A stretch of 30,024 bases of DNA, taken from IMG/VR virus record IMGVR_UViG_3300031963_006063, positions 1-30,024 of that record. One strand, 5' to 3'. Source of the DNA: a virus. This document shows, one piece after another, positions 1,372-14,108 of the stretch. A program made the translations under genes and the position numbers. Each line of letters begins with the position of its first letter. The stretch's first letter is position 1. The notes below the pieces were generated by a model that was not told where the DNA came from, made no database searches, and saw only the letters and a list, made by a program, of their open reading frames with translations.

Positions 1372-1538
1372 GCGCTGTTCTTGTCGTCGGTCTTGGTGTG
1401 CAATGGGCAGCCCTGCGTAATCCAGAACTGCCACACGCCACCCACCTGATATGCGCCTCTGCCCCGTCCATTGTCGAGGACGGGACAGGTGCAGCCGATA
1501 GCGACGGCGGCGTCACTGCCGGGGTTAGGTGTGGTCAT
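1368..1538 (-). CDS. Small conserved Cys-containing phage protein
   Basis: This 56-residue protein starts MTTPNPGSDAAVAIGCTCPV and ends with a GCPLH motif. The arrangement NPGS..A...GC.CPVLDN followed by FWI...CPLH is a pattern I recognise from many small uncharacterised phage and prophage proteins; the function is unknown. Three cysteines (16, 18, 44) and a nearby histidine (47) suggest metal binding, which is an inference. The start overlaps the upstream stop as ATGA (1535-1538) and uses a GGAGGACGC ribosome-binding segment that is repeated at another gene junction (3621-3634). Confidence 0.8.
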   Translation of the reverse strand: MTTPNPGSDAAVAIGCTCPVLDNGRGRGAYQVGGVWQFWITQGCPLHTKTDDKNSA

Positions 1539-1547
1539 GCGTCCTCC
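1534..1547 (-). repeat. 14-bp junction repeat, copy 1
   Basis: GTCATGCGTCCTCC here and at 3621-3634 reads GGAGGACGCATGAC on the minus strand. Each copy holds the ribosome binding site, the end of an upstream gene (C-terminus EDA-stop) and the overlapping ATG of the next gene. Confidence 0.7.
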
Positions 1548-1992: not shown

Positions 1993-2084
1993 TCCCCCTC
2001 CCACTTCCCCAGTGGCTTGGTCAGCACGGCAAAAACGATGGCGGTGATCCACGCGACAGCGATGGCGATTAATGGACGGCTCAC
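1989..2084 (-). CDS. 31-aa single-pass membrane peptide
   Basis: This very short gene starts with GTG at 2084-2082, overlapping the TGA of the preceding gene as GTGA, and ends with TGA at 1991-1989, overlapping the next ATG as ATGA. The product is a hydrophobic helix, PLIAIAVAWITAIVFAVL, followed by a short KPLGKWEGE tail, so it is probably a single-pass inner-membrane peptide. Without it the chain of overlapping genes would have an unexplained gap of about 90 bases. Small phage membrane peptides can act in lysis timing, superinfection exclusion or host membrane modulation; none of these is shown here. Confidence 0.6.
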   Translation of the reverse strand: MSRPLIAIAVAWITAIVFAVLTKPLGKWEGE

Positions 2085-2401
2085 GGCTGCGCCTCCGCGT
2101 CGATGGCGCGGACGGCGGCGAGGAAGTCGGTGAGCGCGCTGTGACACTCGATGACGTTGACGGCGGCTCGCTCAATGCGCTCGGCGCGGTGCTTCCACCC
2201 GTCGCGCTCGTTCATGCAGTCCCACAACTGCGACGACGTGTCTTCGCGCTGCCGCATGAGTTCTCCGTGCTCTTCAAGGCTCATCGCGTACTGCTCCCGC
2301 ACCGCCGCCAGCTCGGCGCGGAGGGCATCACGTTCAGCGATCAACGTTGTGAGGTCCACTGTCGTTACTGGTGTCGTCCAGTAGGTGCGGATTTCACTCA
2401 T
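2081..2401 (-). CDS. Coiled-coil hypothetical protein
   Basis: This 106-residue protein starts MSEIRTYWTT. From about residue 15 it is a long charged helix rich in Glu, Arg and Ala (LIAERDALRAELAAVREQY) typical of a coiled coil. A second helical part includes WDCMNERDGWKHRAERIERA. It is probably a dimeric helical protein; the function is unknown. ATG 2401 sits in the 17-bp repeat that also covers the start of the Ala-rich gene, and overlaps the stop of that gene by 8 nt. Similar short coiled-coil genes are common in phage accessory operons. Confidence 0.7.
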   Translation of the reverse strand: MSEIRTYWTTPVTTVDLTTLIAERDALRAELAAVREQYAMSLEEHGELMRQREDTSSQLWDCMNERDGWKHRAERIERAAVNVIECHSALTDFLAAVRAIDAEAQP

Positions 2402-3188
2402 GGCTCGCGGCCTCCCGTCCCACGGCGCACATGGCGCGTACCAAGTCACACGCAGACGCTTGCAGGGTGGCGACGGTGGGCGCGAGTGCGTCCCTCGCTG
2501 CGGCCCTCGCTGCGGCCAACGCTGCGTCCCACGCTGCGGACCCCGCTGCGTCCCTCGCTGCGGACCCCGCTGCGGCCCTCGCTGCGGCCAACGCTGCGTC
2601 CCTCGCTGCGGCCCACGCTGCGGACCCCGCTGCGGCCCTCGCTGCGGCCAACGCTGCGTCCCTCGCTGCGGCCCACGCTGCGTCCCACGCTGCGTCCCAC
2701 GCTGCGGACCCCGCTGCGTCCCACGCTGCGGACCCCGCTGCGGCCCTCGCTGCGGCCAACGCTGCGTCGATCTTCGGCTGTCCCGCTTGCGCCGTCACCG
2801 CGTCCACGATGCGGGCGCACGACTCCAACGCCTGCGCGTGCTCGGTCAGGCCAGCAAGCCGAAGCCACGCTGGCGCTTGCACGCGGACAATCCAGTCCGT
2901 CGCCATCCATGCGCGGGTTTGCTCGTCGGCGCCGGTCGTGCGCGTCCCGATGGTGTCGGGAATCAGCGGTAGCAGCAGCCGCGTCCGGTCCGCGTCCGGC
3001 AGCGCATCGTTCCACGAGCGCATGAACGCCGCGATCACGGGCGACACACACTTCGGGTGATCGCTCCACGGTTCGCCTGCGATATAGGCGGCGGCTTCCA
3101 TCGCGCACATTGCGCCTTCTTTCGGCGTGTGTGCGCCGTGGGCCAAGGTCGTAATCTGGTGCAGCTTGTCGGTATCAATCGTCGTCAT
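2394..3188 (-). CDS. Ala-rich tetrapeptide-repeat protein
   Basis: This 264-residue protein has two parts. Residues 1 to about 130 form a unique globular domain (HGAHTPKEGAMCAMEAAAYI, then EPWSDHPKCVSPVIAAF, then PLIPDTIGTR). I recognise this domain from uncharacterised phage and bacterial proteins that also end in Ala-rich repeats. Residues about 140 to 240 are a run of A-A-x-x units with x drawn mainly from L, R, W, G, D and S, encoded by 22 in-phase 12-nt DNA units (2497-2760). The repeat part should be a long alpha-helix with spaced Trp, Arg and Asp. Function is unknown. The gene lies exactly between two 17-bp repeats, which suggests a movable or deletable cassette. Confidence 0.8.
   Translation of the reverse strand: MTTIDTDKLHQITTLAHGAHTPKEGAMCAMEAAAYIAGEPWSDHPKCVSPVIAAFMRSWNDALPDADRTRLLLPLIPDTIGTRTTGADEQTRAWMATDWIVRVQAPAWLRLAGLTEHAQALESCARIVDAVTAQAGQPKIDAALAAARAAAGSAAWDAAGSAAWDAAWDAAWAAARDAALAAARAAAGSAAWAAARDAALAAARAAAGSAARDAAGSAAWDAALAAARAAARDALAPTVATLQASACDLVRAMCAVGREAASHE
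2398..2414 (-). repeat. 17-bp direct repeat over a start codon, copy 1
   Basis: TCATGGCTCGCGGCCTC occurs here and at 3185-3201, 787 bp apart. On the minus strand it reads GAGGCCGCGAGCCATGA, which includes a GAGG ribosome binding site and the ATG of the coiled-coil gene. It also encodes the EAASH end of the Ala-rich protein. Confidence 0.85.
2497..2760 (-). repeat. 22 tandem 12-bp units inside the Ala-rich gene
   Basis: Twenty-two consecutive 12-nt units begin with GCTGCG on the plus strand, differing mainly in the last six bases (GCCCTC, GCCAAC, TCCCAC, ACCCCG-type variants). Higher-order blocks of four or five units recur, for example at 2569, 2629 and 2737. Decayed units flank the array. 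The 12-nt unit keeps frame, so unit gain or loss by slippage would change only protein length. Confidence 0.95.
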
Positions 3189-3390
3189 GGCTCGCGGCCT
3201 CGGGGGAAGGGGTGGTCTGTAGCGCGTCGATGTGATTCAGTAGGCGCTTGATTTCGTCTTGTGCTTCGCCGCCGTTGCAGCCAAAGCCGCCGCAGGAGTC
3301 GTAGTACCCGCCAAGCACTTCCTGCCGCAGCACGTCAAGTTCATCAGGCGTGAGCAAGCGCGGATCGGCTTTCCACTTACGCCTTGGCAT
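3175..3390 (-). CDS. Small hypothetical protein with Cys/Gly motif
   Basis: This 71-residue protein starts MPRRKWKADPRLLTPDELD and contains a short YYDSCGGFGCNGG segment (two cysteines four apart). The C-terminus ends EAASH plus three aspartates. ATG 3390 is chosen over the in-frame GTG at 3396 because GGGGGAG lies at a good distance before it. It overlaps the start of the Ala-rich gene by 14 nt through the 17-bp repeat. The CxxxC-Gly motif could bind metal, but no family is recognised. Confidence 0.65.
   Translation of the reverse strand: MPRRKWKADPRLLTPDELDVLRQEVLGGYYDSCGGFGCNGGEAQDEIKRLLNHIDALQTTPSPEAASHDDD
3185..3201 (-). repeat. 17-bp direct repeat over a start codon, copy 2
   Basis: This is the second copy of TCATGGCTCGCGGCCTC. 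It covers the ATG of the Ala-rich gene and encodes EAASH at the end of the upstream 71-aa protein. Confidence 0.85.
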
Positions 3391-3625
3391 CGTCACTCCC
3401 CCGCGTCGGCGTGGTGGGGCGGTTGTCGCTCGCGGCGGTGAGGGCGGCGTTCTCTCGATCCATCGCCCACGCCTCCGTCACCACCGGCACCACGGGGGCG
3501 GCGGTTGCCAACCGCTCGCGCAGCCGCACGATCTCGTCGGCAAGTGCGACAGCATCGTGCGTCTCGTCTGGTGGCAACCCAACTTGGAAATCGCGCAGCA
3601 CGGCGTCTCGCTGTTCTGTCGTCAT
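3377..3625 (-). CDS. Hypothetical helical protein
   Basis: This 82-residue protein starts MTTEQRDAVLRDFQVGLPPD. A predicted helix around residues 22 to 42 (HDAVALADEIVRLRERLATA) could form a short coiled coil. The C-terminal third is Thr/Asp/Pro-rich and looks disordered. ATG 3625 overlaps the upstream stop as ATGA and is preceded by the GGAGGACGC junction sequence shared with 1534-1547. No family is recognised. Confidence 0.65.
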   Translation of the reverse strand: MTTEQRDAVLRDFQVGLPPDETHDAVALADEIVRLRERLATAAPVVPVVTEAWAMDRENAALTAASDNRPTTPTRGSDDAKA

Positions 3626-3634
3626 GCGTCCTCC
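3621..3634 (-). repeat. 14-bp junction repeat, copy 2
   Basis: This is the second copy of GTCATGCGTCCTCC. On the minus strand it covers the end of the 53-aa gene (EDA-stop), a GGAGG ribosome binding site and the ATG of the 82-aa gene. Confidence 0.7.
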
Positions 3635-3783
3635 TCCTCTGCCATCGACGCTGCATACGCCTGACGGCTGAGGTCGAGTCGATACCAGTATTCGATGGGC
3701 GTGTCGTCACGCTGGTCCTGCTGCCACTGGCGATACGCGGCATCGTCTGCACGGGCATCGCTGAAATCGTCGGTGCTACGCAT
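3622..3783 (-). CDS. Small acidic hypothetical protein
   Basis: This 53-residue protein starts MRSTDDFSDARADDAAYRQW and ends in an acidic EEEDA. It is rich in Asp, Glu, Tyr and Trp (IEYWYRLDLSRQAYAAS), so it is a small acidic protein; acidic DNA-mimic anti-defence proteins look broadly like this, but that is only a possibility. The start is uncertain. ATG 3783 is preceded by a pyrimidine-rich stretch without a Shine-Dalgarno site. An in-frame ATG at 3825, after GAGACGGCGG, would add 14 residues and overlap the upstream gene by 22 nt. Confidence 0.6.
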   Translation of the reverse strand: MRSTDDFSDARADDAAYRQWQQDQRDDTPIEYWYRLDLSRQAYAASMAEEEDA

Positions 3784-3803
3784 GGGGAGAGAAAGAGAGA
3801 GGG

Positions 3804-4205
3804 TTATACGGGGAGCCGTTCCCATCCGCCGTCTCGCTTGGGCCAGACGATGAACAGGGGGAAGGGCGCGTGTTCTGCAACGAGCTTGGCTTTGAGCCAT
3901 GCATCTTCTTCCGCCCAGAACGAATCGGGCTTGCCATCCTTGCCCTTCTTGCGGGGCTTCACTTCGTGAAGTTCGATGTGTCCATCATCCAGCAGCACCA
4001 CGAAGTCCGGGCGGTAGTGCGTGTTGTCCGCGAGGCGAATCGACAGGAGTTCGTACCACCAGCCCGCGATCACTCCGTGCTTCAGCTGCTCGTCCAACAC
4101 CGCCGCGTATTGCGCCTCACCCTTATTCATCCCGGTGGTTTTGGGGCGTGGCTTCTTCCCCTTGGCGCGCGGAAGGTTGCGGGCGCGACGGAAGGGGTGC
4201 GCCAT
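3804..4205 (-). CDS. PD-(D/E)XK endonuclease, DUF1064-like
   Basis: This 133-residue protein has a compact nuclease pattern: E30 in NKGEAQYAAVLDEQ, D67 in YRPDFVV, and E81 with K83 in IELHEVKPRK. This E...D...ExK order is that of the PD-(D/E)XK superfamily. The layout, with a conserved Tyr just before the catalytic Asp and an aromatic-rich C-terminal strand (FPLFIVWPK), resembles DUF1064 and other small phage resolvase-like nucleases. The N-terminus is basic (RRARN, KGKKPRPK). A role in junction cleavage or recombination is likely from its place just after the primase-helicase, whose stop overlaps its ATG as TAATG (4203-4207). Confidence 0.75.
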   Translation of the reverse strand: MAHPFRRARNLPRAKGKKPRPKTTGMNKGEAQYAAVLDEQLKHGVIAGWWYELLSIRLADNTHYRPDFVVLLDDGHIELHEVKPRKKGKDGKPDSFWAEEDAWLKAKLVAEHAPFPLFIVWPKRDGGWERLPV

Positions 4206-5953
4206 TATCGGCGCTCCTTCCATCGCGGCAGCATTGGGCCGTGAATCTCTTCCTGCTCCGCGATGCTCAACGTGCGTGGCGCCAGACGCAGCGTCCGGTA
4301 GTCCCACTGCACGGGCAGATCGGCTACGCCCCCGTGTCGGTTTTTGTCCACGATCAGCCATGTATCCGCCAGATTCCCTGTCCGGGTGAACCGTGAATGG
4401 TCGAACAACAGTACCTGATGCGAGTCGTTTTCAATGGCACTACCGCCCATCAGCCCCTGCGCGACCGGACGCTCGGCGCGGTTCCCGCTGGTCTGGCGGT
4501 TGAACTGCGAGAGCGCGACCATCGCGATCCCGTGCGTCTGCGTCAGCTCGCGCAGGGTGTGCGCGACCTGCGTCACCCGCTCAAAGTCGGAGTGGCTGGG
4601 GCTGGTGTAGGCCAGCTGGAGGTAATCGACCACAAAGAACCGCGATCCATGCACCTCCACGTGATACCGGATACAGGCCGCAATGTCCGCCAGTTTGCTG
4701 ATCGGCTTGCGGTTGACCAGCACGTGCCCGCCCGTCGTCTGTCGAATCTCGTCCAGCACCGACGCCGCCCGACGATATGCCCCGTGGTCGAACGATGGCC
4801 CCTGCTCTAACTGCACCACCGACTCCCCGCTCACGACCGACAGCAAACGGGTCGCCAACTCACTGCGCCCCATCTCCAGCGAGATGAAGGTGGCAACCTC
4901 CCCCTCGCGAATCGCTGTCGCTGCCATGTTGATGCCGATCAGCGACTTGCCTGTCCCGGTGTTCGCGCCAATCGTCACCAGCCACCCACGCGCCAGCCCA
5001 ACGCCACCACCACCACCGTGGCACAGCGCATTCCACGCCGGGATGGGCGTGGGCACGGCGTCGATAGGGGCCAGCTTCTCGGTGAGGATCTGCTCCAGCG
5101 TGGTCCCGGAGATGGAGTCGAACGTGACGGCGGGCGGTTCGGCCCCAATCGGCGTGGCCGTGTCTGCCACCGACTGCCATGTCTGCGTCCAGTCCAGCCC
5201 AAGCTGCTGCACGGCCTGATGGAGATCGCACAGGTCTTTCACCCGCTGCCCCTCAACCATCACCTCCCGGATCACCTTGGCCTTGGGGAGCGACTTGGCA
5301 ATCGCCGCCACCATCGTCGCCCCTCCCTCATCCGGCTCCTGCCACACCAGCACCTCCCGGCCAGCAAAGAGCGTGGCGTACTCCAGCTTCCACTGACTCG
5401 CGCCGGGGAGGCCCACCACACACAGCCCGCGCTGCCACCCCGCGTGGCAATCGGACTCCCCCTCCACGATCACCACGGGCGCGGTGGGGCGTGCCGCCAG
5501 CACATCCTGCCCGTACAACGGGGTGCCCTCTCCGTCGTTGAGCCAAAACGTCCCTTTGCGTGTACGGCATTTGGTGCGGATAACTCGTTGTGCCGCATCA
5601 CGATACGGGATTGCCACCACAGACTGTCCAAACTTCCCGATTCTATCCTCGACCCCCGCCGCCGTCAACGTGGCGATGGCGAGTCCTTTTCGCTCAGCGT
5701 ACTCGGCCACGGTGAGGCCGGTGTTGCTGGCCTCGACAGGGAGCGCCACACCCAGCACCTCGGCCAGCGTTGCCAGCCCCTCGGTAAAGCCACAGGCGGC
5801 ACATCCCCACGCGTGATCTCCAAGCCATGCGGAGGCGGTGGTGTCGGCGTGGCGCGGGCAGCGAAACGCCACCGCCTGTCCTGATTTCTTTGCCCCATAC
5901 CGCCCCCTGAGCAAGGCGTCCTTGAGCAGTCCGCGTGCATCTAACGTGTTCAT
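4205..5953 (-). CDS. Bifunctional DNA primase-helicase
   Basis: This 582-residue replication protein unwinds DNA and makes primers at the phage fork. The N-terminal zinc-binding site is C32-x2-H35 with C51-x2-C54. A TOPRIM primase domain follows, with VEGESD at 163-168 and the acidic motif QEPDEGG at 205-211. The DnaB-type helicase domain has Walker A GANTGTGKS (329-337), Walker B RFFVVDYLQ (438-446), the LSQFNR motif (481-486) and GSAIENDSHQ (504-513). The size and order match T7 gp4-type proteins. ATG 5953 overlaps the previous stop as ATGA; the open frame further upstream is only shadow of that gene. In the second TOPRIM motif Glu-Pro-Asp replaces the usual Asp-x-Asp. Confidence 0.93.
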   Translation of the reverse strand: MNTLDARGLLKDALLRGRYGAKKSGQAVAFRCPRHADTTASAWLGDHAWGCAACGFTEGLATLAEVLGVALPVEASNTGLTVAEYAERKGLAIATLTAAGVEDRIGKFGQSVVAIPYRDAAQRVIRTKCRTRKGTFWLNDGEGTPLYGQDVLAARPTAPVVIVEGESDCHAGWQRGLCVVGLPGASQWKLEYATLFAGREVLVWQEPDEGGATMVAAIAKSLPKAKVIREVMVEGQRVKDLCDLHQAVQQLGLDWTQTWQSVADTATPIGAEPPAVTFDSISGTTLEQILTEKLAPIDAVPTPIPAWNALCHGGGGGVGLARGWLVTIGANTGTGKSLIGINMAATAIREGEVATFISLEMGRSELATRLLSVVSGESVVQLEQGPSFDHGAYRRAASVLDEIRQTTGGHVLVNRKPISKLADIAACIRYHVEVHGSRFFVVDYLQLAYTSPSHSDFERVTQVAHTLRELTQTHGIAMVALSQFNRQTSGNRAERPVAQGLMGGSAIENDSHQVLLFDHSRFTRTGNLADTWLIVDKNRHGGVADLPVQWDYRTLRLAPRTLSIAEQEEIHGPMLPRWKERR

Positions 5954-13700: not shown

Positions 13701-14108
13701 TATGGGAGCCAGCGCCCCGCCGGAATAGCCCGCCGCTGCATATTTCCCCAGCGTGGCGGGGATCATTCCCACCGATTCGCTGAGTTCATACGTCGGGACA
13801 AGGCGCGCGTCTTTAGGGCGCGTCAAGGCTTTGCCGGTCTGCTCAATGTCGCGGAACATGCGCGACACGGGATTCTCTTCCCCGAGCGTCGGAACACGGC
13901 TCAAAGAGCCAAGTGTCGAAGACACCGCCGTATTGACCGCTGAGAGCGCACCTAGCGCCGACGCGCCAATGCCCTCCGCAATGCCAACTGATGACGGAGA
14001 CGCTACCCGCAAGTCGTCAAAAACGCCCGACGACTTGCGAGAGCGCAAGTCGTCAAAAACGCCAGAGGATCGGCGTGGCTTGAGGTCGTCAAAAATCCCA
14101 GATGCCAC
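10788..14108 (-). CDS. Giant internal virion / DNA-ejection-type protein
   Basis: This 1106-residue protein is the largest in the window and occupies the place of the large internal core proteins of T7-like phages. The N-terminus has three 12-residue repeats with SG(I/V)FDDL at 3-9, 15-21 and 27-33. Glycine/alanine-rich, weakly hydrophobic stretches follow (about 40-200), as in proteins that insert into membranes on ejection. A long helical middle leads to a C-terminal part with FRRTPANIAKRIYEYTPLGI, a pattern like the LPD38 region of large polyvalent phage proteins. No lytic transglycosylase or peptidase motif was seen. The start is GTG at 14108, right after the upstream TAA, with GGGAGG five nt before it. 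Confidence 0.75.
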   Translation of the reverse strand: MASGIFDDLKPRRSSGVFDDLRSRKSSGVFDDLRVASPSSVGIAEGIGASALGALSAVNTAVSSTLGSLSRVPTLGEENPVSRMFRDIEQTGKALTRPKDARLVPTYELSESVGMIPATLGKYAAAGYSGGALAPILLGTAEAVGARPEESEAAMVGKLAGKAGFPTVQRTLEAASTSPIGRALTSVGLAKGTEALLSGGSKALGALRRTEAVPAPTTPPASGVATDVAESTVPRSVAPVSEADQLTLGLDDATQTTARTGSTMPPAARREQPLMQPQEITGYANWEKFSDDPLVQERLKRTASQFVSEFETPLRVTVEHKQSGLYPGKKVGDLIESESLRDVQKKVASELGVDPSELVTRAKNGETLGRYDLLHVRTAINDVLAEEEAYFKILNSATASPDEIAKAQLRLAELNKERNALFGTFTTQRTETGRNLSALRATALRTADPITWMARAQRLAQRPLTEEERAAIIKAADMKDFGELNKLANDLTKFSMREKFLTLIKTNVLTSFKSQLSNFGGNLVSAGLEQGKEYPAFVFDRLLMPFTGVSSKSASALNPKAVADASLRGAENGAKEFMRVMRGERPMNAAVLDNMREVKFDNKALNWYVGAVRRTMGATDELFKNIAISRSLDEQARVLAQAEGKTGQAFADRVQQLIAKPTDEMSMRAMGDAEIATFQENSKLASAAEKIKDVMNIVPGAGDLLFLFRRTPANIAKRIYEYTPLGILSQGRRLVDVVYRGKSAEQRELANALGRITTGSTLGLTLGYHLAKDGKMTGFFPSNQRERDAWEEQGKLEGAIKLTEKSPWIQIAKYSPFGNLLQIGAAMYNMDQDVNVSPGEYAFGALTAPVRAVSELPMVASLSDAFEVAQKAGTPDAADAAIGLAGRTIGAMVPGSGMLRSIASGVDPIARETRGTTVAEGIKNQVLAGIPGLSQTLPVKVDPLGKVTQRPFGLAGSMFIPSQVRADLTQEDFVRKELERTGAVVGRVKRTKAETGDEYAVREQQIGTAIRNALASVIATDPIYQTYGQIDPTMARRLLAYENSQRPAEEQVDLSRINDERIRARLQGYYLEKKADQVKNVISRAQSKGQARIPTNIRSAMEAITR
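14008..14090 (-). repeat. Three 36-nt repeats with embedded hairpin
   Basis: GTCGTCAAAAA recurs at 14013, 14049 and 14085, exactly 36 nt apart. Two copies share 20 identical bases (CGCAAGTCGTCAAAAACGCC at 14008-14027 and 14044-14063). A perfect 11-bp inverted repeat, GACGACTTGCG (14029-14039) and CGCAAGTCGTC (14044-14054), has only four bases between its arms. Confidence 0.9.

Follow-up and report, generated by a model that had tools for sequence, protein, structure and literature searches.

How might a single gene enter or leave a dense phage operon while the genes on both sides stay translated? The question is raised by the early block of a 30,024-base virus record, the whole of which was analysed and is called the window here. 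Nearly all genes in the window, as predicted with a simple in-house caller, lie on the minus strand, and one of them, encoding an alanine-repeat (Ala) protein, carries the same 17-bp sequence at both borders. We propose that the Ala gene, part of the hypervariable early block of a tailed phage, is probably a single-gene cassette whose gain or loss proceeds through homology at translation-coupled junctions.

A 17-bp direct repeat in register with two consecutive starts

The features of the block and its neighbours, with ribosome binding sites abbreviated as RBS, are:

4205-5950: DnaB-type primase/helicase, the first gene of the relevant block in transcription order
3804-4205: TnsA/Holliday-resolvase-like nuclease (phrog_190, E 1.5e-14), after the helicase
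3621-3634, minus strand: outer 14-bp repeat, copy 1 (GGAGGACGCATGAC), where the 82-aa gene starts; the 53-aa gene has the ending EEEDA*
3175-3390, minus strand: upstream neighbour, 71 aa, of no known family, C-terminus EAASHDDD
3185-3201, minus strand: junction repeat, copy 1 (GAGGCCGCGAGCCATGA), encodes EAASH of the 71-aa protein and holds the RBS and start of the Ala gene
2394-3188, minus strand: Ala-repeat gene, 264 aa, phrog_3416 family, with a conserved helical N-domain (about residues 1-143), an x-A-A-x repeat and a conserved LQxSAxxLxxRM tail
2487-2766, minus strand: 12-bp tandem array of 23 units, encoding the Ala tract
2398-2414, minus strand: junction repeat, copy 2 (GAGGCCGCGAGCCATGA), encodes EAASH of the Ala protein and holds the RBS and start of the coiled-coil gene
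2081-2401, minus strand: downstream neighbour, 106 aa, probable coiled coil
1534-1547, minus strand: outer 14-bp repeat, copy 2 (GGAGGACGCATGAC), where the 56-aa Cys-containing protein starts; the gene before it has the ending KLEDA*
545-1081: protein with two winged-helix matches

Past the nuclease, transcription runs through the 53-aa, 82-aa and 71-aa genes, the Ala gene, the 106-aa coiled-coil gene and small genes, and then through a 110-aa gene (1535-1867), the 56-aa Cys-containing gene, a 97-aa gene and the winged-helix protein. The contig itself opens with 1.9 copies of CCCCGCAGGGTTA (positions 1-25).

The 17-mer, TCATGGCTCGCGGCCTC, has exact copies at 2398-2414 and 3185-3201 and no third site with up to three mismatches in the whole window, where shuffled sequence gives an expectation of 0.26 such matches. 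The sequence-only reading of this DNA had pointed to these two copies and had claimed that each carries the RBS and ATG of the next gene and encodes EAASH at the end of the previous one; both observations hold. Read on the minus strand, the repeat is GAGGCCGCGAGCC-ATG-A and occupies positions -13 to +4 of the consecutive starts at 3188 (Ala gene) and 2401 (coiled-coil gene), which places direct repeats at both borders of the Ala gene in register with both starts. The genes before the two junctions end PSPEAASHDDD* (71 aa, ATG at 3390) and GREAASHE* (Ala gene) and overlap the next gene by 14 nt and 8 nt, respectively. Reading frames overlap at both borders of the Ala gene, and intergenic space is nil. 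Beyond the 17 bp, identity ends sharply and the flanking bases of the two copies are unlike. The Ala tract aside, this pair is the only non-tandem direct repeat of at least 15 nt in the 30 kb; the other direct repeat of that length is a tandem one at 14008/14044.

Joining the two copies in silico reproduced the 787-bp loss that had been predicted. The spacing may be off by whole 12-bp units, since the array contains an exact internal repeat of up to 67 bp and its unit number may therefore be an assembly estimate. After the join, both neighbours are open and translated: upstream, the product is a 69-aa protein, MPRRKW...TPSPEAASHE*, and downstream, the coiled-coil gene (MSEIRTYW...) is unchanged. 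The claim that loss preserves both neighbours is thus accurate for the coiled-coil gene and for the upstream gene as far as its EAASHE end, but the C-terminus of the upstream protein is altered from DDD to E.

The two copies of GGAGGACGCATGAC form a second, nested pair of coupled junctions that encloses the inner pair. Recombination between them would take out 2,087 bp of the accessory block with both borders intact. This pair is weaker evidence than the inner one because it has 14 bases, most of them RBS and start.

Could function alone produce the repeat?

The main rival explanation is functional convergence, in which the same needs (a GAGG RBS, a spacer, an overlapping CATGA start and GC-rich codons for E-A-A-S-H) shaped both junctions independently and no recombination is recorded. 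The 17-mer is not an arbitrary sequence: nine of its 17 bases are functional, comprising the GAGG RBS (4) and the overlapping CATGA start (5). The junction also recurs in unrelated phages, always at a coupled start. Among the loci fetched for comparison, which bear L numbers, L109 and L108 have the exact 17-mer, in matching register, at coupled gene junctions: after ...NPNPEAASHDE* in L109 and after ...QQQEAASHE* in L108. Partial copies lie at 8-nt gene overlaps in Pseudomonas phage PseuP_224 (16/17, ...EGASHE*) and Moraxella phage Mcat5 (14/17, ...MAASHE*), both of them weak BLAST matches (E about 8) chosen for overlapping two genes. Because all four of these copies sit at coupled starts, the 17-mer represents a junction type, and some of its likeness is forced by function.

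How much likeness can function force? A base-composition null is too generous, since four of the 17 bases are the RBS and five the overlapping start, and in its place starts were compared with the start codon as anchor. Between genomes, at least 13 identical anchored bases occur at no more than 4.2e-5 per pair of starts and at least 15 at 3.2e-5, and the pairs with long anchored identity are probably mostly homologous genes. The rate of at most 4.2e-5 therefore gives at most 0.0015 over the approximately 35 adjacent pairs of the window. L108 and L109 are the only other carriers of the exact 17-mer among 2.9 million viral contigs, and one sample of an alphaproteobacterial class had it in 1 of 385 genomes.

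Within genomes, anchored identity of at least 9 nt was present in 6 of 2420 pairs of consecutive starts and in 5 of 25160 non-consecutive pairs (Fisher p 1.4e-4; L040, which has a SAS-like start sequence, was excluded from these counts). Without the window, the count is 5 of 2419 consecutive pairs (p 8.9e-4). Across the fetched loci, consecutive starts have such identity about 10-12 times as often as non-consecutive ones. For the cases in L077 and L152, which are near the consensus GGAGGTGA, function may be the whole explanation. The low rate between genomes, the scarcity of the exact 17-mer and the confinement of the excess to neighbouring genes all argue against convergence, and we consider it an unlikely source of the pair.

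Empty and occupied sites in helicase relatives

Is there evidence elsewhere in this phage group that genes come and go at such junctions? Helicase relatives at 60-74% identity were collected from 17 loci (L082-L098), about thirteen of them non-redundant. By tblastn, none of the 17 keeps the 71-aa, Ala, coiled-coil or nuclease gene, the accessory block being replaced, and the 17-mer is absent from all of them at up to two mismatches. The slot after the helicase holds the TnsA/Holliday-resolvase-like nuclease in the window, whereas many relatives have an unrelated protein there, which we take, from reading its sequence by eye, to be RusA-like. A search of viral contigs with the 71-aa, coiled-coil and nuclease neighbours gave one weak coiled-coil match (L107) and no contig with relatives of both flanks, and no empty site for the Ala gene was seen among these contigs. 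Matches to isolate phages by DNA are limited to a short segment near 1.5-1.8 kb, and relatives of the locus were not among them.

Occupied and empty sites of the same anatomy are present in the helicase relatives for other genes. In L087, perfect 15-bp repeats of a coupled start junction, AGGAGGAGGCATGAC, enclose an 841-bp segment made up of a 138-aa gene and its successor, and in place of this segment L084 and L085 have an empty site with one copy of AGGAGGAGGCATGAC; the right-hand gene starts MTIPTPYLWPLG in both L087 and L084. Compared with L087, L089 has an extra 269-bp PGDYG-type gene (90 aa) between GAGGAGATTACGCCATGA and GAGGATATCACGCCATGA, which are identical at 16/18 positions, and L087 has the single-copy empty site GAGGATAAAGCGCCATGA. 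A 112-aa gene of L087 that is absent from L089 and L088 has AGCCATGA at both borders, with the ATGA coupling retained. Other insertions in the relatives (416, 482, 1272 and 1357 bp, as defined by BLAST) break at start junctions and have about 5-6 common bases around CATGAC, and long repeats are therefore not required. Repeats of 8-18 bp accompany several, not all, of the gain or loss events among the helicase relatives. Within this phage group, coupled junctions are thus sites of clean gene gain or loss.

L028 has three successive junctions (9223, 9521 and 9901) with a common GGAGGGCGCGGC. Each of them codes EGAA shortly before the preceding gene ends, and they are possibly a row of single-gene cassettes. 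The repeat junctions of L152 and L028 yielded no clean presence/absence pairs. For the earlier proposal of a cassette gained or lost by a seamless route, the anatomy is as it described and the route is seen in relatives for other genes, but for the Ala gene the searched contigs included none with both neighbours.

A regulatory or a mobile element?

Cluster K mycobacteriophages carry SAS and ESAS sequences, which are 13-bp asymmetric repeats with an RBS just upstream of starts (PMC3203893). The window repeat might similarly be a two-copy start-associated regulatory element that is bound by ribosomes or a factor and regulates two genes jointly, its copies having spread without gene movement. It resembles SAS in that it is asymmetric, contains an RBS and adjoins starts from upstream, and the Ala-family locus L040 has a SAS-like sequence, GATGGAGATAGAC, immediately upstream of four genes (3576-5850). 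However, SAS are numerous, dispersed and of one consensus (PMC3203893), whereas the window has two copies only, both bordering one gene, and the repeat sequence changes from phage to phage and from one junction to another. The helicase relatives L082-L098, which have no 17-mer, also speak against an element of this kind, and we regard it as improbable.

Direct repeats that flank one gene are also what a target duplication would leave, and the pair could in principle be such a duplication or the att-like repeat of a dedicated mobile element or site-specific recombinase. However, inverted repeats were not found at the ends of the Ala gene, the Ala protein has no similarity to transposases or recombinases, and the repeat sequence varies from case to case in the relatives. 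A dedicated element is thus a very improbable origin, and a transposon or att-site reading was rejected, as neither ends nor enzyme were found. The trend so far is for independent insertions of the Ala family to have neither ends nor an enzyme in common.

The Ala-repeat protein and its family

What is the gene that would have moved? The Ala protein matches the phrog_3416 profile (E 7.3e-16) over residues 3-212 of 264, which is most of its length, and it belongs to a widespread, uncharacterised phage family. Viral contigs contain at least 79 relatives of it and bacterial assemblies 35, and the family is scattered across unrelated phage neighbourhoods. Pfam, NCBIfam and PADLOC gave no name for it. 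Residues H20, C28, E31, D61, R68, R92, D98, W99 and R102 of the N-domain are invariant; H20, C28 and E31, together with the nearly invariant C47, could be a metal site. AlphaFold predicts the N-domain confidently (pLDDT above 90 to about residue 150) and the Ala repeat as long helices with low confidence in the middle. A relative of solved structure was found neither by sequence nor by fold; there were two matches that are viral and uncharacterised. A structural role, or one in host takeover, would be conjecture, and the evidence bears on the mobility of the gene.

Most other genes of the family are without such repeats. Repeats of at least 15 nt were present in L040, L076 and L077 only, and none of the 35 bacterial loci has a flanking repeat above 12 nt. 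The L040 repeat looks like a dispersed start sequence, and the Ala gene of that locus has on both sides a repeat of at least 26 bp followed by the hairpin-like GGGGGGCCTA..CGCCCCCC. Ala-family phages also have long repeats at other gene borders, namely 26 bp in L010 (4668 and 4969), 52 bp in L042 (8289 and 8907) and 17 bp in L004, where there are three copies (5854, 6676 and 7624). The EAASHE coded by the window junction falls past the last conserved stretch of the family (LQxSAxxLxxRM). One relative, from a Chromatiaceae bin, has the ending VGREA* with GGGAGGCATGA, so the GGGAGGC part of the junction may be native to the end of the gene.

Relation to known exchange systems

The window case belongs with known boundary-mediated phage module shuffling, of which it is a variant. 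Lambdoid phages are mosaics made through short boundary sequences by illegitimate or homeologous recombination, with module joints at gene borders that have short homology. Classical lambdoid boundary sequences are intergenic, whereas in the window the homology falls within reading frames that overlap. RecA-independent deletions between short direct repeats, as at the lacI hot spots, join repeats of ~17 bp several hundred bp apart precisely and leave one copy. Those deletions are laboratory events inside one gene, whereas the window has a gene-border cassette. The mobile regulatory cassettes of T4-type phages, or PeSLs, are promoter plus stem-loop elements (Arbiol 2010; Comeau 2014, as cited in PMC4503421). 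As outlined in that source, PeSLs resemble the window junctions in being short conserved regulatory sequences between accessory genes, through whose homology single genes or small modules are swapped. The window repeat differs from the PeSLs outlined there: it is a translation-coupled junction, coding for the end of one protein and providing the start of the next.

How would a gene pass through such a junction? On the cassette account, the Ala gene would be bounded by a duplicated translation-coupled junction, consisting of the last codons of one gene, the RBS and the overlapping start of the next, and genes of this block would come and go when such junctions recombine or serve for template switching. 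Gain would double the junction around the new gene. Loss would leave one copy, and the neighbours would retain their reading frame, RBS and coupling. Copy-choice or strand annealing between junctions would be the most likely mechanism, and both the action of an enzyme here and the arrival or departure of the Ala gene by this route are steps that we infer. The functional core (RBS and ATGA) would supply a short sequence common to every border, a longer match of 15-17 bp would raise the likelihood of recombination, and selection would retain the products in which both neighbours are translated.

Why might these junctions matter beyond this locus? Each gene border of this kind would have to carry an RBS and an overlapping ATGA-type start, and so would have built-in microhomology. 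It is possible, although we hold this with less than even confidence, that translation-coupled stop/start junctions serve phages generally as a medium of gene exchange, through which accessory genes enter and leave singly with the operon unbroken, and that a junction duplicated around a gene marks the event. Our analysis offers a concrete, testable account of how single small genes may be swapped cleanly in dense phage operons, and it marks a widespread, uncharacterised Ala-repeat family as a cargo gene. The signature itself, neighbouring starts with a common anchored repeat, could find recently moved genes in many genomes.
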